Positions 1 through 36,179 of a DNA stretch of 36,179 bases are shown here, piece after piece (position 1 is the stretch's first letter; every line of letters begins with the position of its first letter). The position numbers were made by a program, and so were the translations under genes. This DNA comes from a virus, in IMG/VR virus record IMGVR_UViG_3300020470_000077, positions 1 through 36,179 of that record. One strand, 5' to 3'. Below the pieces are notes generated by a model, which was given only the letters and a program-made list of their open reading frames with translations, was not told the origin of the DNA and did not search any database.

Positions 1-3000
1 GCTGTAGACCAAATTCAAGGTCAAACAGTTGCTTCTTTGTCTTGTAACACTCCAAAGAACAATTATTTCACTTGTGACACAAATATCTTCCTAAATCACA
101 ATGCTACGATCACTCAACCGTTTACAGGAGCAACTGCAACGGTAATTGGTCTAATTGAGGAATCTGACAAGTTTGTTGTTAAGAATGTCACTGGTACATT
201 CGATTTAGTTAATACAATTCAATCTGACACTGAAATCTACAATTTAACCTTTGATAATACAGTTGTAGCTTCAGTTGGAGATAAAGTAGTATATCAAGTA
301 CAAGATGGTGGTGTTGCTCACGAAGCAGCAATAGGTAAGGTTCTGCGTAACGTTTTTGATAAAAATACCGTTATTGTCGAATTGCAACCTGCTAACCCTA
401 ATTTATTGACATCTACGGATAATCAGGGTAACACAATTACACTTCCATCTAATCAGTACGTTGATATCGGATATTTCGCTACAGGCAACGGTATAGCGTT
501 AGGATCAGACGCTGCGACTATCGTTAACGTTAAATCATTATCTAAAGGGTTCAAATTATTAGATATTGAGGATAACATTGCCGTCCTTAGGACATCAGTC
601 GAAAAACACGGACTAGCAGTAGGCGATGAAGTTATTGTCACCGTCGAACCAAATGCTGCTATTGCCACTCAGACATATGCAGTAGAGACTAAGAAGTATC
701 ATACTGTCCAACTACAAGAACCCACCAAAACCACTAGTATTAATGGTTCTGGGGTAGCAAGACTTCAATTAGTCAACTCTGGACAAGGATTTACTGCAGA
801 TGCCACTTTCCAAGCTGTCACATTAACTTCTACATCTGGTTCTGGTACTGCTGCTACTGTAGATGTTACAACAGATTCTAGTGGTCGTGTCGCATCCTTT
901 ACTATTGCTAGTAAGGGTGATGGATACAAGTATGGAGACACCTTAACAGTTACACCTGCTCAGTTGGGTGGAAATGTTGGTGCTCAGTTATGTACATTCT
1001 TTGTAGATGCTGCAGGATGTGCTAAGAATGATACTGTTATTACTGTTCTCAACAGTACAGGTATTGCTCAAGGTGATATCCTTAAGATTACTGATGAATT
1101 GGTACAAGTTACCAATGTGACTGGTCAATATCTAACTGTTAGCCGTGGTGTTAATGGTTCAGAGGCAGATGACCATATTGAAGGTGCTAGTGTTGAGTTA
1201 AGATCGAATTTCTACAGATTTACGAAGGATGCTAATATTTCCTTCTCTAACAACACTGCTTATATCGATAGTTACGATGCAGATACCCATAAACTGATTG
1301 TATACTATACAAATGAGATTGATACTGAGATAGATGCAACTTCAACCTTCTTGGATGGTAGTACACCAGCGAGACAGGTTGCTATCACTAGTGTTGAACC
1401 AACAGACCTAAGATTTAGATTTAAGAAGGATGGAACTCTAGAATGGTTCCGTAATATCAGTTTAGACGTACAAAAAACGTATCGTTACGTTTTCGATACC
1501 AGTGATGCTTCATTAGTAGATAGAAACCTTAAATTCTACGAAAACGTTTATAGAACGACAGAATTAGTTCAAGCTTTTGAATCAGTAGCAAAACCAGGTA
1601 ATTCTGATTCATATACTTCATTCCAATTGGGTTATGGTATACCTATTGATGGTGTTACTTGGAATAGTACACCTGTACTAGATAGTCCAACCAAAATTTA
1701 CTATGGAGAGGTATCTAATAAGATTAATAGCGAAGATCAGTTCTTTAGTCTTGTAGAAGACCCATTTGCAGGTAAGCACGCTGTATTCTATGGATATGAG
1801 TACGAATTTGCTTATAGGCTAAATTCTGTTCCTCAGAATGAAGGATTTACGAATGTACAGTATTATACCGACTCTCTATACGCTGTAGGAGCGATTAAGA
1901 GAGTTAAAGTCATCTCAGGTGGTAAAAACTATACGATGCCTCCTCAGATCCCTGGAGTGTTCTTAAACAAGCGTTTTAGAGGCGATTTTACTCCAGTTAT
2001 CGAAAGTGGAAGGATTACTTCAGTCACAGTTGGAAATACTGGTCTGAATTATTCTAAACCCGTTGTTTTACTCGAAAATGAAGGTGATGGAGTAAATGCT
2101 GAGTTTAATATCGAATTAAGAGCAGATGGTAGCGTAAGTCGTATTATTCCGACTAATGAAGGATCTCTTTACGATGAGAACACTACTTTGCGTCTTTATG
2201 AGTCCGATGTTAAGTTATTTGCTCACGGAGAGGATATTGGTAAGTTAGCAACCCTAGAAATCATTTCTTCGGGTAAAGACTTCAATAATGACCCAACTTT
2301 GATTCCTCAGGTCAATCCACCCATTGTAATGACTCTAAAAGATATGCCAGACAAGGCATTCTTGAATGGAGAGCTTATTACCCAAAGAAGTGCTGGTGGA
2401 GACTTACTTGCTTCGGGTAGAGTCGATTATTGGATTGATGGAATGAATATCCTTCGTTTGAAAGGATTATTCGGAAAATTCGTTCAAGACCGTCCACTTT
2501 ACGGTGCAACACTTCGTAGTACCGCAAATATCCAAAAAATCTTTGTTGCGAACATAACTCCCGAAATTGGACCTACAAGTACTTCAGTTGGTTCATATGG
2601 AAGTGATAGAAGCAAATTAAGTGCTATTTCGCAGAAAATTCAAGATGGAGTCTATTATCAAGATTATTCTTACGTAGTTAAGTCTACAGTCTCAATTAAC
2701 GACTGGAGAGACTTTGTTAAGACATTTACCCACCCTGCTGGATTTAACCTCTTTGGAGAGGTCTTAATCGAGTCAGATGGTGATGGAACGCAACCAGAGA
2801 CCATTGACACCCCACAATCGGGTATTAAGGATAATGGCTTCGGTGCTGTTATGAGTATCCTTGAACCAGGCGTTTTAGGTGTTCAATCTGCTCATAAGTC
2901 AAGAAGAATTACACAATCCCACGTTAGAGTTGATTCCTTCGAGAAACAGCGTGGTCAAGGTACTATTAACTATAGTGAACAGAATAATGTTGAGATTGAG

Positions 3001-6000
3001 GTATTTGACCTTGATATCTCACCAGATTTCGATGGTGCAGTTCAGGTGGACGGTACCATAACTGGCACAAAGACATTTACTCTGTTTAAGAAAGATATTA
3101 ACGAGATTCTATCTCCATACAGAGCACAGCAATTATTAGTCACTTTGGATGGTGTTTTACAGGATCCAGATACTGCTTATACTATTAGTGGATCTACGAT
3201 TACATTTGCTGAAGCACCATTAGGGCCATATACAGATCCTAGTACTGGTATATTTGTACCAGGTGTTACGTTTTATGGCAAATCATTAAGGTTCCAAGAT
3301 GACGCGAATAATGCACGTTATATGTTGGAATCAAACAACATAACGAGCCTTTTCGACGGCACAACGACAGAATTCGACTTAGGAATCGAAATTGTTGAAG
3401 GTGATCATATGTTCATCTCCTTGGATGGTGTTATCCAAGAACCTGATGTAGCATTTACATTAACGACAAATCCTGGTAATGGTAAGGTTACTTTCACAGA
3501 ACCACCTCGTCAGGTTGGTAAGATTGTAGAACTAGAAATAGGCGATGCAACAGATTGGTTAGTAAATGATTTTGTTGTAGGACAAACCACAGGTGCACGT
3601 GGTGAAATCGTTTCTAAACGCTATTTCCAAGATGATAGATTCCTAGATGCATCAAATATCATTGAAGATAACTCTGCTGTATTAGCAGAAGAAGCAGTTG
3701 GTATTCTTGATGATACCAGTAAATTCTCATCTGAATATTTCACATATCCAGGATTAGGAAGGAATCAGTGTATTGTTGACCTTAAGTCTGTTCTTAAGGC
3801 AATGGCAAATGACCTAAGTCTTGGTGGTAACAGTAATGTATATGATGCTGCTAAAGAGTATCTACTAGATCCTGCATCAACTACTTCTGATATTAAGCAC
3901 ATTGAGGGTGAAGTAGAGGCAACTCTCTGGGCTATGAAGTATTTGAAGGATATGACAATAATGTCTGTCCGTAATAAGTTTGGTATTGATAATCTATATG
4001 GATATCAAAGAGCTGCTGCTGCAGTCTTTAACCTTACTCCTACAAACGCTACTTATAGTGCTGCGACTGGAAATCTGGTTCTTACGATACCTGATCACGA
4101 CCTTACTACCTCTTCTTATATTGCTATTGCTACTAATGCTTTGACATTCACCTGCAATATGGATGCCAATGGTAGTAATCACACTTATCCTCGTGTTGGA
4201 GACCCCGCACACAATACAGTATTGCCTGTAACTGCTATAACTGACAATACAGTTACTGTAAATGTTGGTGCTTCTCCAATTGTTAACTATACACCTACTG
4301 ATGCAACATATGATCCTGCAACGGGTCTTATGGAACTTACTATTGGATCACATAAGTTATCCTCTGGTACTAGTATCAAGTTAGTAAACGATTCTATATC
4401 ATTTACTTGTGAGATGGATGATCGTGCGACGGTTCATACCTATCCACGTTCTACTGATCCAGTATCAGACACTGCGATTAATATTGTAAGTACAGGAACC
4501 ACGTCTCATACTGCGATTAATGCGTCTTATACTCCTGTGACTGGTGTAATGAATATTGTAGTACCAGATCACGGATTTAATGATGGTGATAAGATTAAGA
4601 TTGTCGATAACTCATTCACATTCACTTGTGAGATGGATAACAAGTATGGCAATCATACTTATCCTAGATCTACAGATCCAGCCAGTGACACTTGGTTAGA
4701 GATTAGTGGTAAAACTAATGATTCATTCAATGTTAATGTTGGAACTACAAATTTAAAGAATCATAATGTTTCATCTGCGACATATAACCCTGTAACTGGT
4801 GACTTAAGTCTTAATATAGGAAATCATACCTTAACTTCAGGTACTAGCATTAAGATTGCAGATAATTCTTTGATGTTTACCTGTGCTCAGGATGATCACT
4901 ATACAGTTCATAGTTATCCTAGGGCAACTGACCCATATCATAATGAGCCTATTACTATCACTGGTACTACTTCAGACAGTATTACTGTTAATGTAGGAAC
5001 CACCCAGAATGCAGGTTATACTCCTCAGACCGCTTCATATGATCCTACAACGGGTCTTATGGATATTACCATAGGAAACCATACATTTAGGGAACCAGAA
5101 CAATTAACACCTACATTTGCTACCTATAATGCTGGTACTGGTATTATGGAGGTAACTGTTGCTGGACACGAGATGTCTGTAGGTGACAGAGTTAAGTTTG
5201 CTGCTAATTCTCTCACATTTGAGTGTGAGATGGATGGACAACAGTCTCAGAAGACATATCCTCGTGCTTCAGATCCTTGGGTAGACCAATGGATGCCAAT
5301 TAGCGAAGTTACGACTGATACCTTTAAAGTATTTGTTGGTTCATCACCTCTTAAGACATTTGATGTAAGTGCTGCTACATATGATCCAAATACAGGTGAT
5401 TTAGAACTTACTATTGGTACTCACGGTCTTGTACAGAACGATAGTATCAAACTTGCAGCAGATTCATTAACCTTTACTTGTGATTTTAATGGCGATGGTA
5501 ACACAACTAATAAGACGTATCCACGAGCTACTGGATCCGCAGCCACTGGAACAGGTGGGTCTGATTACGTTTATAATACTGCTATCCCTATTACTGGGGT
5601 AACGGCAACAACGATTATAGTCAATGTAAACGGTGGACAGGGTGCTATTACAGACACTACTGGTCACAATTTCGTATCTGCAACTGCAGGTGCTGTAATT
5701 ACTGGTGGTAACTACACTCACCACTTCTCTTCTGCTTCTGCTAATGCTATTACTAAAGCAGGAGAATCATTAAGAATTGTTGAGGATGGAATATCCTTCC
5801 AGTGTGCTATGGATGGCAATACTGCTACCAAGGCATATCCACGTGGTGATATTGATACTCATACTGCAACTGATGCTGTATATGATCCTGCTACAGGTGT
5901 CATTACTATAACTACATTCTCTGATCACCGTATGGATAATGGTGATTGGATTAAGTTAGCAGATGATTCGTTGACATTTACTTGTCAGCAAGATAATGAT

Positions 6001-9000
6001 GCTACTAATCATTCATATCCACGTGCTACTGATCCTATAAGTGGTAAATGGATACAAATCTTTGATGCTGTAGAAGTTACTAATCAGTTCTCTATTAGAG
6101 TATTAGATTCTGTTCCTTCTACTAATACAACAATTCATACATTTGTTTCTGCTACTGCTAATGGTATCAGTCAGAAACGTGATAGAGCATTTGAAGCTGC
6201 TTTACCAGTAGAATCTGTAGGTTCATCAATTCATACAGTTGAAAATGCTGCATATGATCCTGTAACTGGTATTATGACTATTACCATTACTGGACACTCA
6301 TTTGCTAATGGAAATTATGTCAAACTGGAAAAAGAATGCCTTACGTTTAATTGCACTAAAAATAGCGGTGCTACCACTCATTCTTATCCTCGCTCAACAG
6401 ACCCAACTTATAAAGATTGGTTAGTCATTTCCAATATACAGACAGATACATTTGATGTTAACGTTGGTATTTCTGGACCTAATGATGTATATGCTCATAC
6501 ATTTGTACCTGGCGCAGAAAATACTAATTGTTTAAAGAGACAAACTGGTGTTGTTACTGTTGATGTAGGTGAATCACCTATTAAAGAATTTACTCCTGGT
6601 GCTGGTACCACATATGATCCTGTTAGTGGTGACTTAGTACTAGCAATTGGTCCTCATAGTCTTGCGGTTGGTACTGCAATTAAGATTGCTACAAATTCAT
6701 TGACCTTTGAGTGCGATAACGGTGGAGTTAGCACTGGGGTCTATCCTCGACCAAATGGTGCTAATACAGGTAATGGTGAGGATTATGCATACGACACATC
6801 CCTTGCTATCACTGCAGTTTCAGCGAATTCAATCACTGTAAATGTTAATGGTGGACAGGGTACTATTAGTCATAACTATCCACACACTTTTGTTTCTTCA
6901 CTTGCTGGTGCTGTTAAGACTGGTGGTAACTATGCTCATACCTTCTCAAGTGCTTTAGTTGGTGCAGTTATACAGGGTGGAAATTATGCTCACACATTCG
7001 TTAGTGCTAATCCTAATGCTGTAGTTTCTGGAGGAAACTATGCTCACGAGTTTGTAACTGCTGCTGATAATGGTATTATACTAGAGAAAGGTAAGATTAC
7101 ACTTAATGTTGGTGCATCTCCTCTTGTTAATCACGACGTAACAAATGCTACATACGATCCTCAGACAGGTGATGTAGTTCTAACTATTGGTGCTCATAGC
7201 TTGACAACAGGTGAGAGTATTAAACTTAAAGAGAATGCCTTAACATTTACTTGTGCACAAGGTTCTGGTAATTACAGTTATCCGAGATCTGATGTCGAAT
7301 CATTAACAGCAACTACTGGTACTACTTACAATCCAACAACAGGTGTGATGCAGATCACAACAACTGCTGCACACAACCTTGTAAATGGCGATTGGGTTAA
7401 GTTTGCTGCAAACTCATTAACCTTCAGTTGTGCTTTTGGTGGAACACCAACTGATAAAACTTATCCTAGATCTACAGATTATCCAAACGATAGATGGTTA
7501 CAGATTTCTAATGTTACTGCAGACACATTTGAAGTAACTGTATTGGATGTAATTCCTTCTACTAATACTGATGCTCATACATTTGTCTCTGCTACTGCAG
7601 ATGGTATCAGTGCTAAGAAGGATCCTTATTTCGATACTGCTATTCCTATTACTGGAACCTCTACAACAACAATTACAATTAATATTCTTAAGAGTGCTCC
7701 ATCCACTAACACTACAGTACATACATTTGTTTCAGCACTTCCTGGAGCAGTAATTAGTGGTGGTAACTATGCTCATACATTCAAGTCTGCAACTGCAGAT
7801 GCAGTAATTTCTGGTGGTGCTTACGATCATACATTTGTAAGTGCTACATCAAATTCAATTGGTGTATACAACGATCCTTATAGAGTTTCTAATCCTGTTG
7901 CTAATACATTCATCGATGCTGCTGGATTACTTAATTCTAATAAGACCTTCATTGCTAAGGAATCAGTCGCAAGAATGGTTGCTGCTAATGGAACAATACC
8001 TGATCCTGTGTATAAGGATTCAGTTTACATCAAATATGAAGGTACTCCTTTCACTGCTACAACTGGTACGACATATGATCCATCAACGGGTATTATGTCA
8101 GTCACTACAACTGTTGCTCACGGATTGAGTAATAATGACTGGATCAAGTTTGTAGATGGTGCTGTAACATTCAAGTGTGCTCACGATGGTAATCAAACTA
8201 ATCACGCTTATCCTCGTTCTAGCGATCCTGTGGCTGGAAAGTGGTTGGAAGTCTCGAACGTAACTGCTACTACGTTCCAAGTTCAGGTTCTAGATGCAGT
8301 TCCTTCCACTAACGAAACTGCTCATACTTTCGTTTCTGGTCTTACAAATGGAATCATAAGGAAGGACGGATATATTACTCTTAACGTTGGTAAGTCTTCT
8401 AATACTAGTGCTCATACCTTCGTTCCTCAAGTAGGTAAGACACCTACTAATGCCACCTATAATCCTAATACTGGTGTAATGAACCTAGTGGTTCCTGATC
8501 ACGGATGGGATGAAGGTGATTGGATTCAACTAGATGATAATGCTATTACATTTACTTGTCAGCAAGGTGCAGGAAATCATAGTTATCCAAGACCTATTAC
8601 TAACACATTTACAGCAACTGGTCCTACCTCATATGATCCTAGTACAGGTGTACTATCCATAACAACCACTACTGCACACGGATTTGCTAATGGTGATTGG
8701 ATTAAGTTAGCTGATAATTCATTAACATTTGAGTGCGATCAAGATGGTCGTGGTACTCAACATTCCTATCCTCGTTATGGTGATCCTATTAGTGATACTT
8801 GGTTAGAAGTTACTGTAGTTGACAATGATACATTCAATGTTAATTGCTTAGAGATTATTCCTTCTACTAATGTAACTACTCATTACTTTATGTCTGCTAC
8901 TGCAGATGGTATTACACATAAGGTGGATCCTGCTAGTGGTGGATGGTTGCAGATTACTAATGTAACACCAGATTATTTTGATGTACAAGTTAATACAACT

Positions 9001-12000
9001 GTACCATCAAGCAATACTACTACACACACCTTCGTTTCTGCTGCTGCAAATAGTGTAAAGAGAGCAGCAATTGTAACAGGTGGTGCTTATGTTCATACAT
9101 TTGATAGAGCACTTACTGGTGCAGTTAATGCTAATACAGGTGCTCAGATAACTCCTACTGGAGTTGCGTATGATCCTGCTACTGGTGATATGGTAATCAC
9201 TAAGACAGGACATAACTTAACAACATCAAATACTGTAAGCTTTGATCCTTTATCCATCATATTAAGATGTGAGATGGATCAGAATGCTTCACCACACGCA
9301 TATCCACGTCCTACAGACCCTGTTGCTGGAAGGGATTTGGTAATTAAGGCAGCAGATGCAGATACATTTACTGTGTTTGTTGGTAAGTCACTTGCTCAAC
9401 CATTTGAACCAAGTGCTGCTACCTATGATCCTGCTACAGGTGATATGGTTCTTAATATAGGAGCACATAAGTTAGGTAGAGGAACAGGAATTAGATTTGC
9501 CACAGATTCAGTAGCATTTACTTGTGCTATGGATGGTGGTAATGCTGTTAAGACATATCCTAGAGCATCCTCTGGTGATGCACACGATGATTGTGTAGAT
9601 GACGTAGTTGATATTTTAGATGGTATTATCTTTAACCTTAAGTATGGTGGTAACAACCGTGTTTGGGATGCTGCAGATCTTTATGTTGATAGGTCTGGAT
9701 TCCTAGAGCATATCACACAACAGGTTTCACAAGTACTTACTGTATTCTCCGAAGTTAAGGATATTACTAAGGATGTTATACGTAATGATGCTGTTAATAT
9801 AGTTGGTACTCACGGTTTAACACAGATTGTTAATACTAGTATTACACTTGAAACAGGACAATGTGCTGTTGTTGAACAAGCAATCAATACTTTTGTTCAA
9901 ATTGTTGAGACTGCAGTACAAAACCCAAGTACATTTGAAGCAAGTGTTACTAGAACACTTCCAGAACTTTGGCCAATTGAGCATAGTACATTAGTTGCTA
10001 ATAGGGATACAACAATCACTGTTGATTCTAATCCTCAATGTGCTCAGGTTGAATCTGCTATTAATACACTCTTTAGTATTGTTACTACAACTATTCAGGA
10101 AGCATATTACAACAATAACAATTATCTACTACAGTTATCTCAAGACTTCCCTAATCCTAATAGGATTCAGGTTGAGATGAGTAAGAAGGAGTTTGTTGCT
10201 GGTGAAGATATTCAAAGTGAAGCAACATTGAATACAATAGGTGTTACTAGTACTACTGTTGTTGCTCCAGGTGTTCAACAGAAATACTTTGGATTTAAAC
10301 AAGGTAAGTACTACAAACTTGATAGCATTGAGTCTCAGTTCAATGATGCACAGACTATATTTGAACTAGAACGTGGTGGTGTTCCTTTCTATGCTGAAAG
10401 AAACCAAAATATTGTAGTTATATTGAATGGTGTTATACAGGTTAACCAAGTTGCATATAGAATTGAAGATAATATCATAGTTTTCACTGAACCTCCTTCA
10501 ACTGGTTCTGCTTGCTTCATCCTATACTTCTATGGTTTAGATCCTGAGCGTGTTCTTTTAGGATATAACATTGAATCTCCTGGTACCTTCAAGAAGTTCT
10601 TTAGATTGACTGTTGACCAGCAAATCGTTCTTCCTGTTGAGGGTGCAGACTGTTGGGTATCTACTGATCCTCAATCTAATCCTCATACTTACGTTAATTC
10701 CTACTCTAGAGGTAGAATCTATAAGCAATCTTGGACTCCAGGACAACAGAACCTTCTATTCGTTGAGGGTGTTACTGCACAGAAAGCTAACTGGTTGAAT
10801 GGTACTTTAAGTATTACTAGAGATAGGGGTGCAAGTCCTTCCATATTAGATGTAACAATTAATGCAGTTGAAGAAATTGTTGATTCTGATTTAAGAGAGA
10901 AATTATTCAATAGAAATGACAGATTTGAGTCTAACTTGAATCCTGGTGATCTTATTCAGATTGATGGTGAGGCAGATACACGTTCTATTATTCGTGCTGC
11001 TAGAGAAGCATTGGTAACTTCTGGATATGACTCAGACACTAGTGGTGCAGTGGGTTCATTCTTCAGATCTTATGAGTATGAAGTTGTAATTAACGTTGGT
11101 GCTTATTCTGGTCAGATTGAAGGTCAGGGTGCACAGGCAGTTGCACGTATTGATGCTGAACTAAGATTCCATACTTTAACATCTTCCAGATCTGCTGGAT
11201 TAGAATTCCTTCCTGGTGATACTGTTGTACAGTATACAGATCAAAATGATACAAGTTCAGCAATAGTCTGGTCTGCTGAAGTTAAGAACTATGTTCCAGA
11301 AAGAAAGACTATTGAACTTAAGAGTCTCTATATTGATGGTGGTGCTAATACTGATCCAGTAGCTGCTAACTTCCGTCCAGGTGAAAAGGTATACATTGAT
11401 GGTGTAGTAGGCACTGAAGCAACTGCATTACAATATCTGAAGCCAGGTGGTGTTAATAGTATCGTTCTTTCTAAGAGAGATAACTCTACTTACTTCGATA
11501 ATATTAATGCTTGGAGACAAGATAATGTATTAAACAAAGGTCAGAATTTACTTGGTGGTGCATTTGTACCGAATAATGCTAGTGCATCTGATGTATCGCA
11601 AGAATATGACTTTAGTTCATCACTATTCTCTAGTGATTTACAATCACAGATTTCAAAGAATTATCGTGAACCACCCAGAATGATCTTCCGTAGTCAACCA
11701 TTGGTTGATTCAAACGGTGATGCAGTAGGTTCTCCTACAGGTGGTGGTGCACGTGCTAATGCAATCGTAGTTAGAGGCGAGGTTGCTGATACTGAGATCA
11801 TTACAACTGGTTCTGGATATAAGGTTCCACCTCAAATCTTGTTTACCAGAGGATACTTTGTTATCCGTAAGGACTCATTAGATATTACTACTCTGACTAC
11901 ATTCGGTGTTGAACCTGTTACTATTGATGGTTCTTCAACACTGAAATCCTTCCTTACAGCAATCAAGAAAGGTGGTTCTGGTGTTCCGTTTGCTCAATTT

Positions 12001-13374
12001 GCTTCCTATATGCCATTAGGCGACACACTCGTCTTTGGTAATGGTGGATCTCCAGCATACAGAATAAACAGATCCTATGATGGCACTATAATCTGGCATA
12101 AGGTTATAGACGCAAGTATAGAGGTCAAGCCACAACCAGAGATATATGTAAACCTTTCTCCTGAACAAGCTTTAGTAAGTTATCAGGGAACTAAGGTTAC
12201 TAATACACAATGCACAGGTGGTGTTCAGGGCATCTCTGTTGCAATGACCAAGTACAAGAATACAGAGACTAAACTTTCTTGTAATGCTGGTGCTGTTGAG
12301 AAACAAGCAGGTAATAATCCTCAGATGATAGGTAATGTTTCCTATTCTGCTGGAAATCTTGGTCCTCATCTTAACTTCCTACAGAATTTCAAGTTTGAAA
12401 TTCAACCTCAGTCAATTAGTTCTAGCGGATTAGCGGGATCATATACTGATGGTCAAGGAAGGACAATTAATTACGTAATGGGTGATATGACAATTGGATT
12501 CTTCTCTGATCGTTATCCAAACCTTACAGTTGGTGATTTTGAGAATCCTGAGGTATATAATTCACAGGTGAATGATCCTGGTGATACGAATAACTTCGTA
12601 TTCCAACAGGGTTCAGAGATACACTTCGGTACTACACTGAAGTATGCTGCATTAGATAATCCTATTGGCGCAGATATTCTATTGGTAGAATCAACTGCTG
12701 GATTCCCTGCTTCAGGTGGATCTGTAATATTGGGATCTGGTGCTGATCAAACAAAAGTTGAAAAACTAACATATACACAAGCACTTCCTGGACGTTTAGT
12801 CGGGTGTACTCGTGTTAATCCTATTGGTGTTGTAGAGAAAGGATTCAACACCTACGATATGGATATACAGACATTTGTTGGTACTGCCAAAGTTTCGACA
12901 GGAACTGGTTCTGGTGGTACTACTAATGGATTCCTTTCAAATATAAATTATGTGGCATTTGGTGGTGTTAATATGAGCACCCCAAGAGAGGCAACATTCG
13001 GTGCACTCGACTTGACTACATACAGTACTGTGACCTTTAGTGCAATTAGAGGAAATGGTAGTAACGGTGGGGATGCACCTGCTGCTTCTGCTAATGACTT
13101 ACTTGCTCGTTACAGTATTGACGGTGGTAATACATTCGTAGATATTGGAACCATTGTGGCTTTCGATGATACGAGTTTTGATACTTGGAACACGGTCAGT
13201 TTGACCATCCCATCTGCAGCACAGACCGCTACCACCATACTACAAGTTTACCAAGCTGCAGCTACAAGTACGAACACCGATGCGTTTGGTGTGCGCTTTA
13301 TGTGGTTTGACGATGCGAATACAGACTCTTATATCGCGGGAGACTATGTAATCACCGCAGATTTAGATCTATAA
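1..13374 (+). CDS. Giant virion structural protein (5'-truncated), YPR-repeat array, gp7 position
   Basis: The frame is open from base 1, so the gene starts outside the window; a TTG at 37 is not a credible start. The visible part is 4457 residues (numbered here from the first codon). I recognise no named family for the whole protein. Visible parts in order: mixed beta modules (residues 1-870), with GxGY-type segments near 255-325 and 635-740; a conserved-looking core near 880-921 with YYQDYSYVVKS and HPAGFNLFGEV, a pattern I associate with large T4-like phage structural proteins; two DGVxQ modules (about 1025-1180); a helical module (1257-1327); the YPR array (about 1345-3190); a second helical module (3198-3262); two QC-helix repeats (about 3285-3375); a third DGVxQ module (about 3470-3515); and a jelly-roll-like C terminus (about 4305-4457). 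It lies directly before gp8, where gene 7 lies in T4, so a baseplate-wedge or peripheral role is inferred from position only. The stop codon lies inside a late promoter box. Confidence 0.9.
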   Translation, partial: AVDQIQGQTVASLSCNTPKNNYFTCDTNIFLNHNATITQPFTGATATVIGLIEESDKFVVKNVTGTFDLVNTIQSDTEIYNLTFDNTVVASVGDKVVYQVQDGGVAHEAAIGKVLRNVFDKNTVIVELQPANPNLLTSTDNQGNTITLPSNQYVDIGYFATGNGIALGSDAATIVNVKSLSKGFKLLDIEDNIAVLRTSVEKHGLAVGDEVIVTVEPNAAIATQTYAVETKKYHTVQLQEPTKTTSINGSGVARLQLVNSGQGFTADATFQAVTLTSTSGSGTAATVDVTTDSSGRVASFTIASKGDGYKYGDTLTVTPAQLGGNVGAQLCTFFVDAAGCAKNDTVITVLNSTGIAQGDILKITDELVQVTNVTGQYLTVSRGVNGSEADDHIEGASVELRSNFYRFTKDANISFSNNTAYIDSYDADTHKLIVYYTNEIDTEIDATSTFLDGSTPARQVAITSVEPTDLRFRFKKDGTLEWFRNISLDVQKTYRYVFDTSDASLVDRNLKFYENVYRTTELVQAFESVAKPGNSDSYTSFQLGYGIPIDGVTWNSTPVLDSPTKIYYGEVSNKINSEDQFFSLVEDPFAGKHAVFYGYEYEFAYRLNSVPQNEGFTNVQYYTDSLYAVGAIKRVKVISGGKNYTMPPQIPGVFLNKRFRGDFTPVIESGRITSVTVGNTGLNYSKPVVLLENEGDGVNAEFNIELRADGSVSRIIPTNEGSLYDENTTLRLYESDVKLFAHGEDIGKLATLEIISSGKDFNNDPTLIPQVNPPIVMTLKDMPDKAFLNGELITQRSAGGDLLASGRVDYWIDGMNILRLKGLFGKFVQDRPLYGATLRSTANIQKIFVANITPEIGPTSTSVGSYGSDRSKLSAISQKIQDGVYYQDYSYVVKSTVSINDWRDFVKTFTHPAGFNLFGEVLIESDGDGTQPETIDTPQSGIKDNGFGAVMSILEPGVLGVQSAHKSRRITQSHVRVDSFEKQRGQGTINYSEQNNVEIEVFDLDISPDFDGAVQVDGTITGTKTFTLFKKDINEILSPYRAQQLLVTLDGVLQDPDTAYTISGSTITFAEAPLGPYTDPSTGIFVPGVTFYGKSLRFQDDANNARYMLESNNITSLFDGTTTEFDLGIEIVEGDHMFISLDGVIQEPDVAFTLTTNPGNGKVTFTEPPRQVGKIVELEIGDATDWLVNDFVVGQTTGARGEIVSKRYFQDDRFLDASNIIEDNSAVLAEEAVGILDDTSKFSSEYFTYPGLGRNQCIVDLKSVLKAMANDLSLGGNSNVYDAAKEYLLDPASTTSDIKHIEGEVEATLWAMKYLKDMTIMSVRNKFGIDNLYGYQRAAAAVFNLTPTNATYSAATGNLVLTIPDHDLTTSSYIAIATNALTFTCNMDANGSNHTYPRVGDPAHNTVLPVTAITDNTVTVNVGASPIVNYTPTDATYDPATGLMELTIGSHKLSSGTSIKLVNDSISFTCEMDDRATVHTYPRSTDPVSDTAINIVSTGTTSHTAINASYTPVTGVMNIVVPDHGFNDGDKIKIVDNSFTFTCEMDNKYGNHTYPRSTDPASDTWLEISGKTNDSFNVNVGTTNLKNHNVSSATYNPVTGDLSLNIGNHTLTSGTSIKIADNSLMFTCAQDDHYTVHSYPRATDPYHNEPITITGTTSDSITVNVGTTQNAGYTPQTASYDPTTGLMDITIGNHTFREPEQLTPTFATYNAGTGIMEVTVAGHEMSVGDRVKFAANSLTFECEMDGQQSQKTYPRASDPWVDQWMPISEVTTDTFKVFVGSSPLKTFDVSAATYDPNTGDLELTIGTHGLVQNDSIKLAADSLTFTCDFNGDGNTTNKTYPRATGSAATGTGGSDYVYNTAIPITGVTATTIIVNVNGGQGAITDTTGHNFVSATAGAVITGGNYTHHFSSASANAITKAGESLRIVEDGISFQCAMDGNTATKAYPRGDIDTHTATDAVYDPATGVITITTFSDHRMDNGDWIKLADDSLTFTCQQDNDATNHSYPRATDPISGKWIQIFDAVEVTNQFSIRVLDSVPSTNTTIHTFVSATANGISQKRDRAFEAALPVESVGSSIHTVENAAYDPVTGIMTITITGHSFANGNYVKLEKECLTFNCTKNSGATTHSYPRSTDPTYKDWLVISNIQTDTFDVNVGISGPNDVYAHTFVPGAENTNCLKRQTGVVTVDVGESPIKEFTPGAGTTYDPVSGDLVLAIGPHSLAVGTAIKIATNSLTFECDNGGVSTGVYPRPNGANTGNGEDYAYDTSLAITAVSANSITVNVNGGQGTISHNYPHTFVSSLAGAVKTGGNYAHTFSSALVGAVIQGGNYAHTFVSANPNAVVSGGNYAHEFVTAADNGIILEKGKITLNVGASPLVNHDVTNATYDPQTGDVVLTIGAHSLTTGESIKLKENALTFTCAQGSGNYSYPRSDVESLTATTGTTYNPTTGVMQITTTAAHNLVNGDWVKFAANSLTFSCAFGGTPTDKTYPRSTDYPNDRWLQISNVTADTFEVTVLDVIPSTNTDAHTFVSATADGISAKKDPYFDTAIPITGTSTTTITINILKSAPSTNTTVHTFVSALPGAVISGGNYAHTFKSATADAVISGGAYDHTFVSATSNSIGVYNDPYRVSNPVANTFIDAAGLLNSNKTFIAKESVARMVAANGTIPDPVYKDSVYIKYEGTPFTATTGTTYDPSTGIMSVTTTVAHGLSNNDWIKFVDGAVTFKCAHDGNQTNHAYPRSSDPVAGKWLEVSNVTATTFQVQVLDAVPSTNETAHTFVSGLTNGIIRKDGYITLNVGKSSNTSAHTFVPQVGKTPTNATYNPNTGVMNLVVPDHGWDEGDWIQLDDNAITFTCQQGAGNHSYPRPITNTFTATGPTSYDPSTGVLSITTTTAHGFANGDWIKLADNSLTFECDQDGRGTQHSYPRYGDPISDTWLEVTVVDNDTFNVNCLEIIPSTNVTTHYFMSATADGITHKVDPASGGWLQITNVTPDYFDVQVNTTVPSSNTTTHTFVSAAANSVKRAAIVTGGAYVHTFDRALTGAVNANTGAQITPTGVAYDPATGDMVITKTGHNLTTSNTVSFDPLSIILRCEMDQNASPHAYPRPTDPVAGRDLVIKAADADTFTVFVGKSLAQPFEPSAATYDPATGDMVLNIGAHKLGRGTGIRFATDSVAFTCAMDGGNAVKTYPRASSGDAHDDCVDDVVDILDGIIFNLKYGGNNRVWDAADLYVDRSGFLEHITQQVSQVLTVFSEVKDITKDVIRNDAVNIVGTHGLTQIVNTSITLETGQCAVVEQAINTFVQIVETAVQNPSTFEASVTRTLPELWPIEHSTLVANRDTTITVDSNPQCAQVESAINTLFSIVTTTIQEAYYNNNNYLLQLSQDFPNPNRIQVEMSKKEFVAGEDIQSEATLNTIGVTSTTVVAPGVQQKYFGFKQGKYYKLDSIESQFNDAQTIFELERGGVPFYAERNQNIVVILNGVIQVNQVAYRIEDNIIVFTEPPSTGSACFILYFYGLDPERVLLGYNIESPGTFKKFFRLTVDQQIVLPVEGADCWVSTDPQSNPHTYVNSYSRGRIYKQSWTPGQQNLLFVEGVTAQKANWLNGTLSITRDRGASPSILDVTINAVEEIVDSDLREKLFNRNDRFESNLNPGDLIQIDGEADTRSIIRAAREALVTSGYDSDTSGAVGSFFRSYEYEVVINVGAYSGQIEGQGAQAVARIDAELRFHTLTSSRSAGLEFLPGDTVVQYTDQNDTSSAIVWSAEVKNYVPERKTIELKSLYIDGGANTDPVAANFRPGEKVYIDGVVGTEATALQYLKPGGVNSIVLSKRDNSTYFDNINAWRQDNVLNKGQNLLGGAFVPNNASASDVSQEYDFSSSLFSSDLQSQISKNYREPPRMIFRSQPLVDSNGDAVGSPTGGGARANAIVVRGEVADTEIITTGSGYKVPPQILFTRGYFVIRKDSLDITTLTTFGVEPVTIDGSSTLKSFLTAIKKGGSGVPFAQFASYMPLGDTLVFGNGGSPAYRINRSYDGTIIWHKVIDASIEVKPQPEIYVNLSPEQALVSYQGTKVTNTQCTGGVQGISVAMTKYKNTETKLSCNAGAVEKQAGNNPQMIGNVSYSAGNLGPHLNFLQNFKFEIQPQSISSSGLAGSYTDGQGRTINYVMGDMTIGFFSDRYPNLTVGDFENPEVYNSQVNDPGDTNNFVFQQGSEIHFGTTLKYAALDNPIGADILLVESTAGFPASGGSVILGSGADQTKVEKLTYTQALPGRLVGCTRVNPIGVVEKGFNTYDMDIQTFVGTAKVSTGTGSGGTTNGFLSNINYVAFGGVNMSTPREATFGALDLTTYSTVTFSAIRGNGSNGGDAPAASANDLLARYSIDGGNTFVDIGTIVAFDDTSFDTWNTVSLTIPSAAQTATTILQVYQAAATSTNTDAFGVRFMWFDDANTDSYIAGDYVITADLDL
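3769..3981 (+). repeat. Helical module, copy A (left flank of YPR array)
   Basis: Residues 1257-1327 of the giant protein. The order of conserved positions is Cys-x2-Asp, a hydrophobic helix, GGN-x2-V-x-DAA-x2-Y, an HI-x2-EV helix, then VRN. The same order appears in copy B at 9592-9786. The spacing and residues match too well for chance, so this is an internal duplication that brackets the repeat array. Confidence 0.7.
5665..5760 (+). repeat. 18-residue HTFxSA...GGNY repeats, first block (2 copies)
   Basis: Two adjacent copies of the pattern HxFxSAxxxAxxxGGNY, starting at 5665 and 5719 (54 bases apart); the second copy degrades after about 14 residues. They sit inside the seventh YPR unit, after its VNVNGGQG strand. 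Confidence 0.7.
6883..7083 (+). repeat. 54-base tandem repeat (18 residues), 3 full copies plus 1 degenerate
   Basis: Copies start at 6883, 6937, 6991 and 7045, exactly 54 bases apart. Consensus is HTFxSAxxGAVxxGGNYA. The fourth copy loses the GGNY part. The DNA is similar but not identical between copies, so the array is diverged rather than freshly amplified. Confidence 0.88.
7720..7869 (+). repeat. 54-base tandem repeat, second array (2 full copies plus partial)
   Basis: Copies start at 7720, 7774 and 7828, again 54 bases apart, with the same HTFxSA...GGNY consensus as the array near 6.9 kb. A single further GGAYVHTF copy is found near 9079-9130. Confidence 0.82.
9592..9786 (+). repeat. 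Helical module, copy B (right flank of YPR array)
   Basis: Residues 3198-3262 of the giant protein. Shares Cys-x2-Asp, GGN-x2-V-x-DAA-x2-Y, a leucine-HI-x2-xV helix and a terminal (I/V)RN with copy A at 3769-3981. It is followed by two further QC-helix repeats (QCAVVEQAINTF near 9859, QCAQVESAINTL near 10036) that may be shorter relatives of the first helix. Confidence 0.7.
12913..13371 (+). other. C-terminal jelly-roll-like domain of the giant protein
   Basis: Residues about 4305-4457 read like a lectin or reelin-type jelly roll: an ATFGALDLTTYSTVTF strand pair, a gapped ARYSIDGGNTFVDIGTI segment, a W-x-T-x-SLTIP strand and an FGVRFMWFDDAN end. The order 'ordinary strand, Asp-Gly-Gly-x-x-(F/W), W, IP, D...W' is typical of such folds. 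Codons here use more C-ending and G-containing triplets (ACC, GTG, GCG) than the repeat array, by eye. Carbohydrate binding is only a guess. Confidence 0.5.
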
Positions 13375-31149: not shown

Positions 31150-34100
31150 ATGGCAAAGAAACTAGTCAGCGACTATACCTTTGTGCCGTACGATCCCGTG
31201 ACCCTAACGGGTGGTACGGTTACTATTAAGGATAATGTTCAGGGGGAACGAATACTCCTGATCACAAACGTCACGGATAATGTTATTCTGTATAACTTCT
31301 CCGACCCGACAAAAGGGTTCTTACCCTCTGCAAACAAAACTGGTTGCGACTTCAACCAAGATTTTGAAGAAACAGTAATTACGCTGGCTACTGACACCAG
31401 CACTATGGATACAGCGGATCAACTCCAGATCTTCGTTGAATCCGAAGCAGCAGAGTTTGAACCATCAGAAACCCTACTCGATCCAGTATCGAAACTGAGA
31501 GTCTCTAACCCAGAGACAATGATCGACACCGACTTTGAGTACGGGCCTCAGGCAACTAAGTGGGAAACTCTACAGTTAGTTAACAACATTCCGTCAACGT
31601 ATTCTGCAACGTCTGACACCACGATTCCTTATATCGAGAGTGTTGAGTGTACTGCCAACTCTGATACAATTACAATTACTACATTATATGAGCACAGTTT
31701 AACTGCTGGTGTTCCTATTGTTGTAACTGGTCTTGCATCTACAACTGCTGAAGGTTCATACCTTATTCAGTCAGTACCTAGTGCAACTACCTTCACATAT
31801 AAGGCACGTGCTACTCAGTCAATTAGTGCTGATATATCTGGTTCTTATACAAGTATCATTCCTGGTTTGTTCTATGAGGGTTCTGCCATTTCCCTAGAAC
31901 CAAACAAAGGTATTGTTGCTGACACGTTTGAATATGTTGTTACAGTCTCAAACGTTGGTGGACAGAACTATTTTGCTATTGATGGAACAGTTCAATCTTC
32001 GACTTTGTTTACCGTTAATAAGAACGGTATGTACATCTTCAAGGTTGATGATGCATCAAACATTGGTCACCCATTCCGTGTAAGTACAACCGCTGATGGT
32101 ATTCACGGTGGTGGTGTTGCATATACCGATGGTGTTTATGTAAACGGATCTGAAGGTACTGCTGGTGCTTATGTCCGTATATACGTAACAGATAATACTC
32201 CTGCTACTTTGTATGCATATGATGCACAGGCAGGTAACACAGGTGTTGGATTTGAGATGTCCTTCGCACCTGCAACTACAACGAAGGTGGTTCTTTCAAC
32301 TGCTTATGAGAACGGTTTCGCTGACGGAACTGCACTCTACTTCGTTAACACAATTTCTCCTAAGATCTTACAGGTAACCAATACAACTGCAACAGCCGCT
32401 GACGGTCGTGCTGTAGTTGACTATGAGGATACCTTCTCTGGAACACTCAATCCTGATATGACTGAGTTCCAGCCTTATGATCATAAACCAACTGCACTTT
32501 GGACAGTCAATGATTCTAACGTTGACTACACTAACAGTACTATTACGTTAACTGGTACTAATGCTAACTACTTCCGTAACAGATACTGCTTACTGTACTA
32601 TCCAAACCCAGGTGACTACTGTATTGAAAACCTTCAGCGTAATGGTATCTACTACACTCGTGTAGAGTCTACTTCATCTGCTGATGGTGGTACTGCAGTT
32701 ATTAAACTATCAAACGCATTCTTTAGTGGTGGATCAGGTGGTAACCCAGGTCAGAATGGTATCATCAACCTAGAGAATGATGCAAGTTCCTTACAGAACA
32801 ATGCTGCTACTTACAACTTCGGTAAGCACAACTTTGCTCTAGTCCACAGGTATTGTATGGACTACAAGCCTTGGTGGGACTGGTACTGGAGGTGGAGATG
32901 GATGGCTTGGAACTACGGTTCTGACTATTCAGGTAGAGACTTCTGGGATGTTTCAAACAACAGAGGTATTTCCAACTCTGGATGGAACAAGGCATATTAT
33001 CTGACAATGAATCGTCGTCAGTACAATGGTTCAGGTGAACTGAATAACAGTAACTACGACGGAAGATTTAACAACAACTGGTACCACGGTGGTAACTCAG
33101 TTTGGGGATGGTCTCCAGGCTGGAACTACGGTGACTACCTACCAGAGTCTGAAACTACTCTAACTAACGGTCGTTGGAACCCACTATATGACCGTTCACA
33201 TTATTGGTCTAATAGGTGGCGTTACAACTACTCACTAGATGCCAACAACGGATTCCACTTCAGATATGGATACGACTGGTGGTGGGCATACTATCGTGGT
33301 CACGGATCTTGGGTTTGGAACTACAACCAAGACTACTATGGTAACGCATTCTTAATGCTAGTACAGGATCGTTCAAATGATGACGATACATTCTATGTAC
33401 CTAATCACGGTGCTGTAACTAACGACCAAGTAACTATTACTAAGACAGCAGGTAGCGACCCTCGTTACTATTCTAACGAGTCTAGTATCTCTGATCTTAC
33501 ACTTCCTGCTACAGTATACGTTGAGAAGGTTGACAACAACCGTTTCCGTATTAAGTCCAGCACAGGTTCATCTCCATATCGCTTGATTGATGCTCGCGGT
33601 ACTTATGGAATGACTGGTATCTTTGCTAACCCAACTAGAAACTCCATCTACTACGAGAATCATAACCTCTCTAACGGTGAGCGTCTATTCTATACAACTG
33701 CTGGTACCGCTATTGGTAACCTAACACCAAGCACACAGTGGTATGTTAAAGTTGTTAGCAACGATAGATTTGCATTAGGTTCATCTTCGTCCTTTACTTA
33801 TCCTGACAATGCTCAAGATCTCACATCGGCTGGTTCAGGTACTCAGGTCTTCGAGAACCAGACTGCTGCTTTTGGTGCGACTGACGGTGCTTACAACGTA
33901 TCTCTCGTCAAGGATCAAACTCAACTCGTTGTCGATGTCCCATTCCAGATCGTACCGACGACTAAGACGTTCGATGCGCGTGACACGGGCTCGGGTGGAG
34001 TTGTCGATACGACAGATAATTGGCTCCAGATTGAGAACCACTTTATGAGAACTGGTCAGCGTCTGATTTATCAGGATGCTGGAGGAACAACTATTGGTGG

Positions 34101-36179
34101 ACTAACCGATAACCGTGACTACTTCGTCATTGTTATTGACCAAGACCACATTCAACTTGCAGAAACAGCTGCCCTCGCAGAGGCAGGTACTGCAGTTGCC
34201 CTAACAACTGGTGGTTCACAGACACCTCTACAAAAACTAATCCATACTAATATGGATGGTCAGGTTGTAGGTGCTGGTACCATTGCTTGTACAACTGGTT
34301 CTCGTGTTATTACAGGTACTGATACTAACTTCACTCGTTACTTCAAGGTTAACGATAAGTTCAGGTACGTTAATAACAACTCTGCTACAACATTCACGAT
34401 CGTAGAAAGCACAATTTCTGCTATTAAGGATGACACTGAACTCCTAATAGAAGACGCTGCTTCATTCACTACGGGTGCTGTTAACTCTTCTGGTAACACC
34501 GAATACTTCATCGATACTGCGATATACGTACGACCCGATGGATACTTCCTACACAGACCGTTTGACGGTGGTATGGAAATCGGAACCAGTAAGTCACCTG
34601 ATGGTCAGATCGTCAGACAGACACGTAGATACTTCCGTTACCAGTCAGGTAAAGGTATTCAGGTATCTCTCGCTATTAACTTCTGTCCTAAGAACCCTGC
34701 GATTCGCGCATACTACTCACCATACGTTGATGGAACGACCTTCCACCGTGTTATTGTTGAGACCAAACTACCTCACAACCTTGAGGTTGGCACCAACATA
34801 TCATTCGTGGACGCAACAGATTCTACCTATAACGGATTCTGTACAGTTGCAACAGTCGATAGTGCATTCCAGTTTAGTTACATCCTAGATTCTGCACCTA
34901 CTTCTAGTGCTGCAGGTGGATTTACTGGATATCACGTACTCAACTGGTCTAACTCTAACGTACGCGCAGGTATGTTTGACTTCCAGAATGGTATGTACTT
35001 CGAGTACGATGGTCAAATTCTGAACGCCGTTCGCCGTAGTTCCACAACTCAGTTAACAGGTCGTGTATCTGTAACACGTGGTTCTAACGTTGTAACAGGT
35101 TCCGATACTGCATTCCTCTCGCAGGTAGATGTCAACGAGTACATCGTTATTCGTGGTCAGTCGCATAAGGTTATCCGCGTGGTTAACAATGATCAAATAA
35201 TCATTCAGCCACAGTACAAGGGTATCACTGCTGCTAACATCATTCTGACTAAGACAATCGATACTAAGGCACAGCAAGGTGCTTGGAATATCGATAACTG
35301 TGACGGTACTGGTAAGTCTGGATTCATACTGGATATCACTAAGATCCAGATGGCCTATATGGACTACTCTTGGTACGGTGCAGGTAAGATCCGCTATGGA
35401 TTCAAGGATCAGAATGGACACGTCAAGTACGTACACGAATTCAAGCACAACAACCGTCTAACGGAAGCATACTTCAGATCAGGTAACCTACCTGCTCGTT
35501 ACGAGATTCAGAACGTCGGAATTCCAACTTACATTCCAAGTCTGTTCCACTGGGGTACTTCTGTTATCACCGATGGTCGATTTGACTCTGACAAAGCGTA
35601 CCTCTTCACTGCATCTGGAAACCTACTTAAATTCACTAACGAAGTTTCACAGAACGCAACTACTCAGTCTAACTCCAATATCTACAGACAGTACGACTTG
35701 GGTGAAGGTTGGGCAAGAAACCAGAGGTTCTACATCAGATGTTACTTCCCAACTGGTGAAGCATCCAAGCTAACGCAGGGTACTACAGTGTATCAGGCAA
35801 GTGTAGCAAACGGATGGTACGTTGATGGTCGCGCTATCTACCGTTCTCGTGTTTCTGGAGGTAACCTAGAAGTTGACTTCCTATACATCGATTCCAACGG
35901 TAACACTACGTTCCAGTGGAACCAAGGTTATAGCATCATCAACTCCGCATTAGGCAACCCTGCAGTTCCTAACGGTACACAGTTCGCTGTTGGTGCACCA
36001 GCTGGTACAGACAACACCGTTCCTTCGCAGATACCTCTTGTATCAATTAGACTGTCACCTTCTGTTGACTCGTCTCTATCTGGTGGATTGGGTGAACGTG
36101 AAATTATCAACCGAATGCAGTTGCAGCTCAACTCTCTCGACGTTGTTAACACACACGAGTGCGAAGTAAAACTAGTACT
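31150..36179 (+). CDS. Giant virion structural protein (3'-truncated) with Trp-rich segment
   Basis: The frame runs from ATG 31150 to the window edge without a stop: at least 1676 residues. The N terminus (SDYTFVPYDPVTLTGGTVTI, then GERILLITNVTDNVILYNFS) is a start I associate with large tail proteins of marine T4-like phages. Five HGL-type beta modules recur near 180, 751, 835, 961 and 1205 (for example ENHFMRTGQRLIYQDAGG with IGGLTDNRDYFVIV). Two GSxxVTGxxTxF modules occur near 1046 and 1306. Around 1380-1440 lies a conserved-looking SGFILDITKIQMAYMDYSWY stretch with GKIRYGF and NLPARYEI. Residues 565-735 form the Trp/Tyr-rich segment. No membrane or signal segment is seen. A large adhesin or baseplate-attached fibre is inferred; the family function is unknown to me. 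Confidence 0.88.
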   Translation, partial: MAKKLVSDYTFVPYDPVTLTGGTVTIKDNVQGERILLITNVTDNVILYNFSDPTKGFLPSANKTGCDFNQDFEETVITLATDTSTMDTADQLQIFVESEAAEFEPSETLLDPVSKLRVSNPETMIDTDFEYGPQATKWETLQLVNNIPSTYSATSDTTIPYIESVECTANSDTITITTLYEHSLTAGVPIVVTGLASTTAEGSYLIQSVPSATTFTYKARATQSISADISGSYTSIIPGLFYEGSAISLEPNKGIVADTFEYVVTVSNVGGQNYFAIDGTVQSSTLFTVNKNGMYIFKVDDASNIGHPFRVSTTADGIHGGGVAYTDGVYVNGSEGTAGAYVRIYVTDNTPATLYAYDAQAGNTGVGFEMSFAPATTTKVVLSTAYENGFADGTALYFVNTISPKILQVTNTTATAADGRAVVDYEDTFSGTLNPDMTEFQPYDHKPTALWTVNDSNVDYTNSTITLTGTNANYFRNRYCLLYYPNPGDYCIENLQRNGIYYTRVESTSSADGGTAVIKLSNAFFSGGSGGNPGQNGIINLENDASSLQNNAATYNFGKHNFALVHRYCMDYKPWWDWYWRWRWMAWNYGSDYSGRDFWDVSNNRGISNSGWNKAYYLTMNRRQYNGSGELNNSNYDGRFNNNWYHGGNSVWGWSPGWNYGDYLPESETTLTNGRWNPLYDRSHYWSNRWRYNYSLDANNGFHFRYGYDWWWAYYRGHGSWVWNYNQDYYGNAFLMLVQDRSNDDDTFYVPNHGAVTNDQVTITKTAGSDPRYYSNESSISDLTLPATVYVEKVDNNRFRIKSSTGSSPYRLIDARGTYGMTGIFANPTRNSIYYENHNLSNGERLFYTTAGTAIGNLTPSTQWYVKVVSNDRFALGSSSSFTYPDNAQDLTSAGSGTQVFENQTAAFGATDGAYNVSLVKDQTQLVVDVPFQIVPTTKTFDARDTGSGGVVDTTDNWLQIENHFMRTGQRLIYQDAGGTTIGGLTDNRDYFVIVIDQDHIQLAETAALAEAGTAVALTTGGSQTPLQKLIHTNMDGQVVGAGTIACTTGSRVITGTDTNFTRYFKVNDKFRYVNNNSATTFTIVESTISAIKDDTELLIEDAASFTTGAVNSSGNTEYFIDTAIYVRPDGYFLHRPFDGGMEIGTSKSPDGQIVRQTRRYFRYQSGKGIQVSLAINFCPKNPAIRAYYSPYVDGTTFHRVIVETKLPHNLEVGTNISFVDATDSTYNGFCTVATVDSAFQFSYILDSAPTSSAAGGFTGYHVLNWSNSNVRAGMFDFQNGMYFEYDGQILNAVRRSSTTQLTGRVSVTRGSNVVTGSDTAFLSQVDVNEYIVIRGQSHKVIRVVNNDQIIIQPQYKGITAANIILTKTIDTKAQQGAWNIDNCDGTGKSGFILDITKIQMAYMDYSWYGAGKIRYGFKDQNGHVKYVHEFKHNNRLTEAYFRSGNLPARYEIQNVGIPTYIPSLFHWGTSVITDGRFDSDKAYLFTASGNLLKFTNEVSQNATTQSNSNIYRQYDLGEGWARNQRFYIRCYFPTGEASKLTQGTTVYQASVANGWYVDGRAIYRSRVSGGNLEVDFLYIDSNGNTTFQWNQGYSIINSALGNPAVPNGTQFAVGAPAGTDNTVPSQIPLVSIRLSPSVDSSLSGGLGEREIINRMQLQLNSLDVVNTHECEVKLV
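32842..33354 (+). other. Trp/Tyr/Asn-rich segment within the second giant protein
   Basis: Residues 565-735 contain 21 tryptophans by my count, against very few elsewhere in the protein. The densest run is WWDWYWRWRWMAW (575-587), followed by spaced GW/NW/RW pairs (WGWSPGWNYG, HYWSNRWRYNY), WWW at 710-712 and WVWNY at 721-725. The reading frame is continuous on both sides for kilobases, so this is not a frame artefact. Glycan stacking or a packed aromatic surface is a guess. Confidence 0.85.

Follow-up and report, generated by a model that had tools for sequence, protein, structure and literature searches.

A Tryptophan-Rich Form of an Aromatic Domain in a Large Virion Protein of T4-like Marine Phages and Its Putative Role in Host-Surface Binding

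Introduction

Little is known of how abundant marine phages, cyanophages among them, recognize their hosts, as the divergence of their adhesins defeats annotation. In T4, fibritin (wac) and gp12 share the gene position immediately ahead of gp13. In cyano- and pelagimyophages, the hypervariable host-recognition cluster is located between VrlC and gp14, and carbohydrate-binding domains have been reported among its structural proteins (PMC7029224). In the cyanophage S-PM2d, the product S-PM2d175 was called an adhesin component, and an allele within it swept to fixation in three chemostats (PMC9910659).

The gene described here belongs with phrog_5838 proteins of the cyanophages S-CAM1 (YP_007673127) and S-CAM3 (AOV58856), which share with it the N-terminal ~258 residues, the C-terminal half, and the slot ahead of gp13-gp14-gp15. 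In their middle part, S-CAM1, S-CAM3, S-PM2, the single-cell fragment AG-345-P14, MW202722, and DSL-LC01 carry other modules, and the aromatic domain that is the subject of this work is absent from all of them. The S-PM2 homologue of the protein's ends, S-PM2d173, is encoded in the same gene block as S-PM2d175 but is shorter (1095 aa). In the papers covered by our literature searches, no Trp-rich domain of a phage tail is described.

Results and Discussion

Identity and genomic setting of the gene

The window, i.e., the whole stretch of DNA that was analyzed, is an IMG/VR record of 36179 bases. Its last open reading frame (31150-36177, plus strand; 1675 aa, 1676 codons) is truncated at the 3' side by the window end, the complete relatives having ~1792 aa. 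From the list of open reading frames, the PHROG match, and the full-length frames in relatives, it was annotated as a virion structural protein gene (31150-36179). The match to phrog_5838 ("virion structural protein", E 7.6e-172) extends over four stretches in the conserved parts of the protein, with the Trp-rich segment itself lying outside the profile, and blastp showed collinearity with the proteins of S-CAM1, S-CAM3, and MW202722. The original prediction of a virion protein is supported by this match and by the neck genes located downstream of the gene in relatives. In the relative L004, the complete gene is followed by those for the head-tail adaptor Ad2, the head closure Hc2, and the tail sheath stabilizer (gp13, gp14, and gp15); in S-CAM1 and S-CAM3, it occupies the same place. 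Genes upstream of it match tail fiber, baseplate wedge, and other virion families. Comparison of the gene order in relatives with the published cluster (PMC7029224) places the window-type gene at the end of the host-recognition cluster.

The slot before gp13-gp14-gp15, as seen in L004, is also the one occupied by T4 fibritin and gp12. However, T4 fibritin is a short coiled-coil whisker, whereas the window protein is beta-rich and has ~1.8 thousand residues, and has no sequence match to fibritin, since a search of the whole protein gave no Pfam family at E up to 1. The L004 contig is near-complete (187 kb) and has genes for the photosystem reaction centre, of which one seems to be divided across the contig ends. 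The hosts of the Trp-rich clade are therefore most likely marine cyanobacteria, and by extension this would also apply to the window. Homologues of the conserved parts were also observed outside this group: the spring-water podovirus MW202722 (L021) has both the N-terminal and the C-terminal part, and the lake Actinomycetia phage OQ999401 (L025) has the C-terminal part. The scaffold therefore extends beyond the T4-like phages.

The Tyr, Asn, Asp, and Phe codons of the window gene (31150-36176) end in C more often than those of the two giant upstream genes, which suggests selection for translation and, perhaps, an abundant virion protein.

Domain organization of the protein

The protein has conserved ends and a variable middle in which the aromatic domain is situated (all features below are on the plus strand). 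The conserved N-terminal region (residues 1-258; 31150-31923), delimited by tblastn, blastp, and alignment, is common to the cyanophages S-CAM1, S-CAM3, and S-PM2 and the podovirus MW202722. It is followed by a module at residues ~259-384 (31924-32301) which, on motif comparison, we take to be cupredoxin-like; a Pfam search gave no match for it. In the sister clades L031-L037, a [YH]C..H..M pattern resembling a type-1 copper site is present upstream of the aromatic domain, and in L034 an HPF was located upstream of this pattern. The clade of the window has retained the HPF and lost the Cys, His, and Met of the putative copper site. The conserved C-terminal part, from residue 1096 onward (34435-36176, truncated by the window), was recognized by blastp to MW202722, S-CAM1, S-CAM3, and S-PM2 and contains RPDGYFLHRPFDGG and RQTRRYFRYQSGKGIQ.

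Between these parts, the Trp-rich form of the aromatic domain spans residues 553-749 (32806-33396), with 21 Trp and 25 Tyr in 197 residues. It includes the run WWDWYWRWRWMAW (residues 575-587; 32872-32910), evident in the sequence and the model, the SGRDF motif (32929-32943), defined in a 45-sequence alignment, and WWW (residues 710-712; 33277-33285), whose first two Trp (710 and 711) are present in all members of the clade. A beta-module, recognized in alignments and in the model, lies directly 5' of the domain (residues 468-552; 32551-32805). The next one, known from alignments (33397-33690), begins after the DTFY that closes the domain. The original description of an island between ordinary beta modules was thus right as to its setting; its limits (32842-33354, residues 565-735) were correctly positioned, but the domain proper is slightly wider.

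Composition and reading frame of the segment

Residues 565-735 are in frame within the window gene and include 21 Trp, 23 Tyr, 24 Asn, 18 Gly, and 14 Arg per 171 residues. The Trp count reported originally is exact, and both of the quoted Trp runs are present. Since Trp makes up 0.49% of the window's other coding sequence, only 0.84 Trp would be expected in 171 residues; the binomial P of ~7e-23 is a measure of scale only, since composition along a protein is non-independent. Among 715 non-shadow open reading frames of the fetched phage loci, the best Trp count per 171 aa had a median of 3 and a 99th percentile of 9, which confirms the presumed rarity, and the two top counts (17 and 13) belonged to relatives of the window protein. 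The whole aromatic domain is rich in Tyr, Trp, Asn, Gly, Arg, and Asp and poor in aliphatic residues (Ile/Leu/Val 8% vs. 19% in the remainder of the protein). Self-BLAST revealed no internal repeat in it.

A wrong frame, an assembly error, or a compositional accident might produce such a segment, and Trp-rich shadow frames do exist on the Gly-rich tail-fiber genes of related loci. However, the segment recurs, unchanged in frame and in sequence, in 20 contigs of numerous metagenomes, its +1 and +2 frames are interrupted by stops, and its dN/dS is ~0.11. Moreover, the endings of its Asn and Phe codons resemble those in the following part of the same gene. Given the stops and the conservation at the protein level, the segment is no shadow reading frame. 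Errors of frame or assembly and compositional drift are excluded for it, and the probability left to an artefact is negligible. A recent foreign insertion was likewise set aside, both on the codon endings and on the monophyly of the clade in the N-terminal tree, which is expected under vertical descent.

Several open reading frames in sister loci seemed even richer in Trp and were rejected as shadow frames of Gly-rich fiber genes. Such open shadow frames on GSG-type fiber genes (L037:7889-8965, L136:1012-2046, and L108:164-1249) have up to 26 Trp in 171 residues and are a trap for composition-based scans. A different case is L053, in which a separate 217-aa minus-strand frame (locus positions 7496-8146) with the Trp-rich sequence YGWYWRYWWGF...YGYGWNWWRKW is located just upstream of a family member.

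Conservation within the Trp-rich clade and database comparisons

Twenty IMG/VR loci contain the segment, with 67-89% identity and collinearity over the whole protein. An alignment scan with the clade sequences, which caught Trp-heavy patterns only, gained one further member. In 13 aligned clade sequences, 12 of the 21 Trp are invariant, and indels are almost absent within the clade. The median dN/dS (Nei-Gojobori) of the domain was ~0.11 compared to 0.10-0.13 in the remaining parts of the protein, the values being approximate because synonymous sites are near saturation. The aromatic domain is under purifying selection within the clade at a level similar to its flanks. The Trp-rich clade forms a monophyletic group (support 100/99) in a maximum-likelihood tree built from the N-terminal region, and its neighbor clade consists of moderately Trp-rich and Tyr-rich members.

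Searched alone, the segment found its IMG/VR relatives and no described domain. None of the 13 members matched a PHROG at E up to 10, and no Pfam family was hit at E up to 10, including the lectin and carbohydrate-binding folds (ConA-like, C-type lectin, and CBM). Comparison to PDB sequences gave nothing better than E 1.1, and contig scans of 84,980 prokaryote genomes with two alignment patterns found no relative. In the phage collection, single-sequence tblastn with the window segment and three relatives gave nothing, and a fourth relative (L052) recovered AG-345-E15 only, through the upstream beta-module alone. Since Pfam, PHROG, PDB, and the prokaryote genomes had no match and the named phages lack it, the domain appears on sequence comparison to be a new one, of no known family, within a known kind of protein. 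Both outcomes that would have spoken against the original prediction are absent: all close relatives carry the segment, and no well-described domain resembles it.

A wider family of aromatic domains at the same site

When the conserved N-terminal region was used for a scan, 80 loci were added, and an aromatic domain was found at the same site, between two beta-modules, in 38 more divergent representatives. A profile built from the Trp-rich clade only matched L032 at E 6e-6 (profile positions 12-202) and, more weakly, L035 and L033, in the same protein and at the matching site. Iterative profiles restricted to the aromatic domain added L094, L038, L044, L048, L050, L052, L055, L067, L088, L099, L100, L043, L053, and L056, with reversed decoys as a control reaching a best E of 0.009; a further scan yielded 17 more representatives close to L031-L037. 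An earlier profile including the flanking beta-module had its matches spread across the repeated modules and was replaced by the domain-only one. In the direct alignment of the Trp-rich and the divergent domains, the correspondence is continuous. The domain is real, in frame, poor in aliphatic residues, and homologous to the Tyr-rich domains that other clades carry at this site. By alignment and profile evidence, the segment is the Trp-richest form of an aromatic domain of ~170-230 residues in the same virion protein. The oddity first noted thus stands as regards the Trp content, but it is the extreme of a wider Tyr/Trp-rich family rather than an isolated case.

The Tyr-rich domains (L031-L037, L094, L038, L050, and others) come from a wide range of uncultured phages, and their statistically supported homology is accompanied by a shared position, SG-x-D motif, invariant Gly, and aromatic composition. 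Indeed, S594, G595, D597, and G606 are invariant in 45 of 45 aligned family sequences. Across the family, the domain contains 1-21 Trp and 15-36 Tyr; outside the Trp-rich clade (1-17 Trp), it is mostly richer in Tyr than in Trp. At the 21 Trp columns, W/Y/F account for 44% of the residues in divergent sequences, compared to 17% at the non-aromatic columns of the domain. Residue 584 is Trp in the entire clade and Thr in 31 of 34 other sequences, and at residue 580 the clade has Trp where other sequences mostly have Thr, Ala, or another small residue. In sister clades, the run 575-587 is replaced by a WYDWYAYFYTYYW-like sequence. Between clades, the domain has only 26-32% identity, whereas the N and C parts have ~55-60% in the nearest sister clades, as would be expected of a domain in contact with the host.

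A diversity-generating retroelement or a similar system of targeted hypervariation might have created the aromatic composition, as in phage tropism determinants, and both the richness in Tyr, Asn, Gly, Ser, and Trp and the divergence between clades would fit. However, reverse transcriptase PF00078 was detected in none of eight records related to the window, which is itself a fragment; these included the near-complete one of 187 kb, and a positive control was detected. The low dN/dS and near absence of indels within the clade point the same way. Such an origin is largely refuted, and we regard it as very improbable.

Predicted structure and membrane propensity

AlphaFold2 with 45 diverse sequences gave a model of medium confidence (pLDDT 62.8, pTM 0.69); a first model from 14 near-identical sequences (pLDDT 29.5) was discarded. 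The upstream beta-module was modeled best, with blocks up to pLDDT 83, followed by the first half of the aromatic domain (model residues 85-160, block pLDDT ~64-82), and the loops were lower. With this model as the query, the best Foldseek match in the PDB had an E of 3.6, and viral matches were weak and partial only. The structure prediction recommended at the outset thus points to no recognized fold, as far as a medium-confidence model can support this. Within the run 575-587, Trp and charged or polar residues alternate, with Trp at every second position from 576 to 584 as on one face of a beta-strand. Since 579-584 is modeled as a strand, Trp 580, 582, and 584 would share one face.

The proposed insertion into the host outer membrane is unlikely in the form of a whole helix: the domain has no membrane-spanning hydrophobic stretch (best 19-residue Kyte-Doolittle mean -0.10) and few aliphatic residues. 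The interface score of the run is nonetheless high, with a best 19-residue Wimley-White sum of 11.2 in WWDWYWRWRWMAWNYGSDY vs. 3.5 in the remainder of the protein. The run might therefore enter the outer leaflet only, at attachment or tail contraction. However, the octanol score does not exceed that of other parts of the protein, the run is internal to a folded domain and away from its ends, and its sister-clade counterpart is of a different type, so that we consider a membrane-interface role improbable.

A serious rival to host-surface binding is that Trp and Tyr form an aromatic core in place of the usual aliphatic one, or a close-packed interface between subunits, stiffening an appendage or baseplate component without any contact to the host. 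With so little Ile, Leu, and Val, the aromatics may have to supply the core. The 12 invariant Trp, the flank-like purifying selection, and the folding of model residues 85-160 are also consistent with it. In contrast, at positions 580 and 584, where the clade invariantly has Trp, most other family members have Thr or another small residue, which would be odd for core sites; the alternation with charged and polar residues in the run and the divergence of the domain, far above that of its flanks, also argue against a purely structural role. It is a real possibility, though we do not expect it to be the case.

Possible function in host-surface binding

Among the roles first proposed, binding of sugars on the host surface appears most plausible from the sequence data, and a putative host-surface (probably glycan) binding aromatic domain on a tail or neck appendage is given about an even chance. 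It would be a conserved globular domain in its Trp-rich version, set between beta-modules within the middle, variable part of a large virion protein of T4-like marine phages, whose gene closes their host-recognition cluster. The protein would form an external appendage of the tail or neck, on which Trp, Tyr, Asn, Arg, and Gly, if exposed, could make binding surfaces. These might hold a component of the host envelope, probably a glycan such as the LPS O-chain, via aromatic stacking and hydrogen bonds. Host-surface binding is supported by the location in the variable middle, the position in the cluster, the divergence between clades, and the aliphatic-poor composition. The S-PM2d173/S-PM2d175 adhesin block offers weak outside support by analogy; on the counter side, the S-PM2 homologue has no such domain, and the swept allele is in the neighboring gene. 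Constraint on the domain within the clade is close to that on its flanks, so that nothing at this scale points to an arms race. Moreover, a usual tail fiber has a variable C-terminal tip, whereas the window protein has conserved ends and a variable middle, which also counts against host binding.

A more far-reaching and rather doubtful version would be an aromatic receptor-binding domain of a class not described before and with a novel fold, located mid-protein on a giant marine-phage appendage. It would diverge fast from lineage to lineage, host binding being tuned by swaps of Tyr, Thr, and Trp on an otherwise constant scaffold.

Overall, a defined, conserved, and testable domain is now available in a protein of the host-recognition cluster. 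It comes with a precise alignment, and its invariant motif residues and the two Trp sites specific to the clade (580 and 584) can be probed. Its Tyr/Trp content also makes the domain an extreme example from nature in which binding surfaces or aromatic packing could be studied.

Elsewhere in the window, a 4457-aa open reading frame (1-13374) encodes a giant baseplate- or fiber-like protein. At residues ~1400-2900, it contains many diverged tandem copies of a module of the type NATYDPVTGDLELTIGxHxLxxGxSIKLxxxSLTFTCxxDxxxxxxTYPR.
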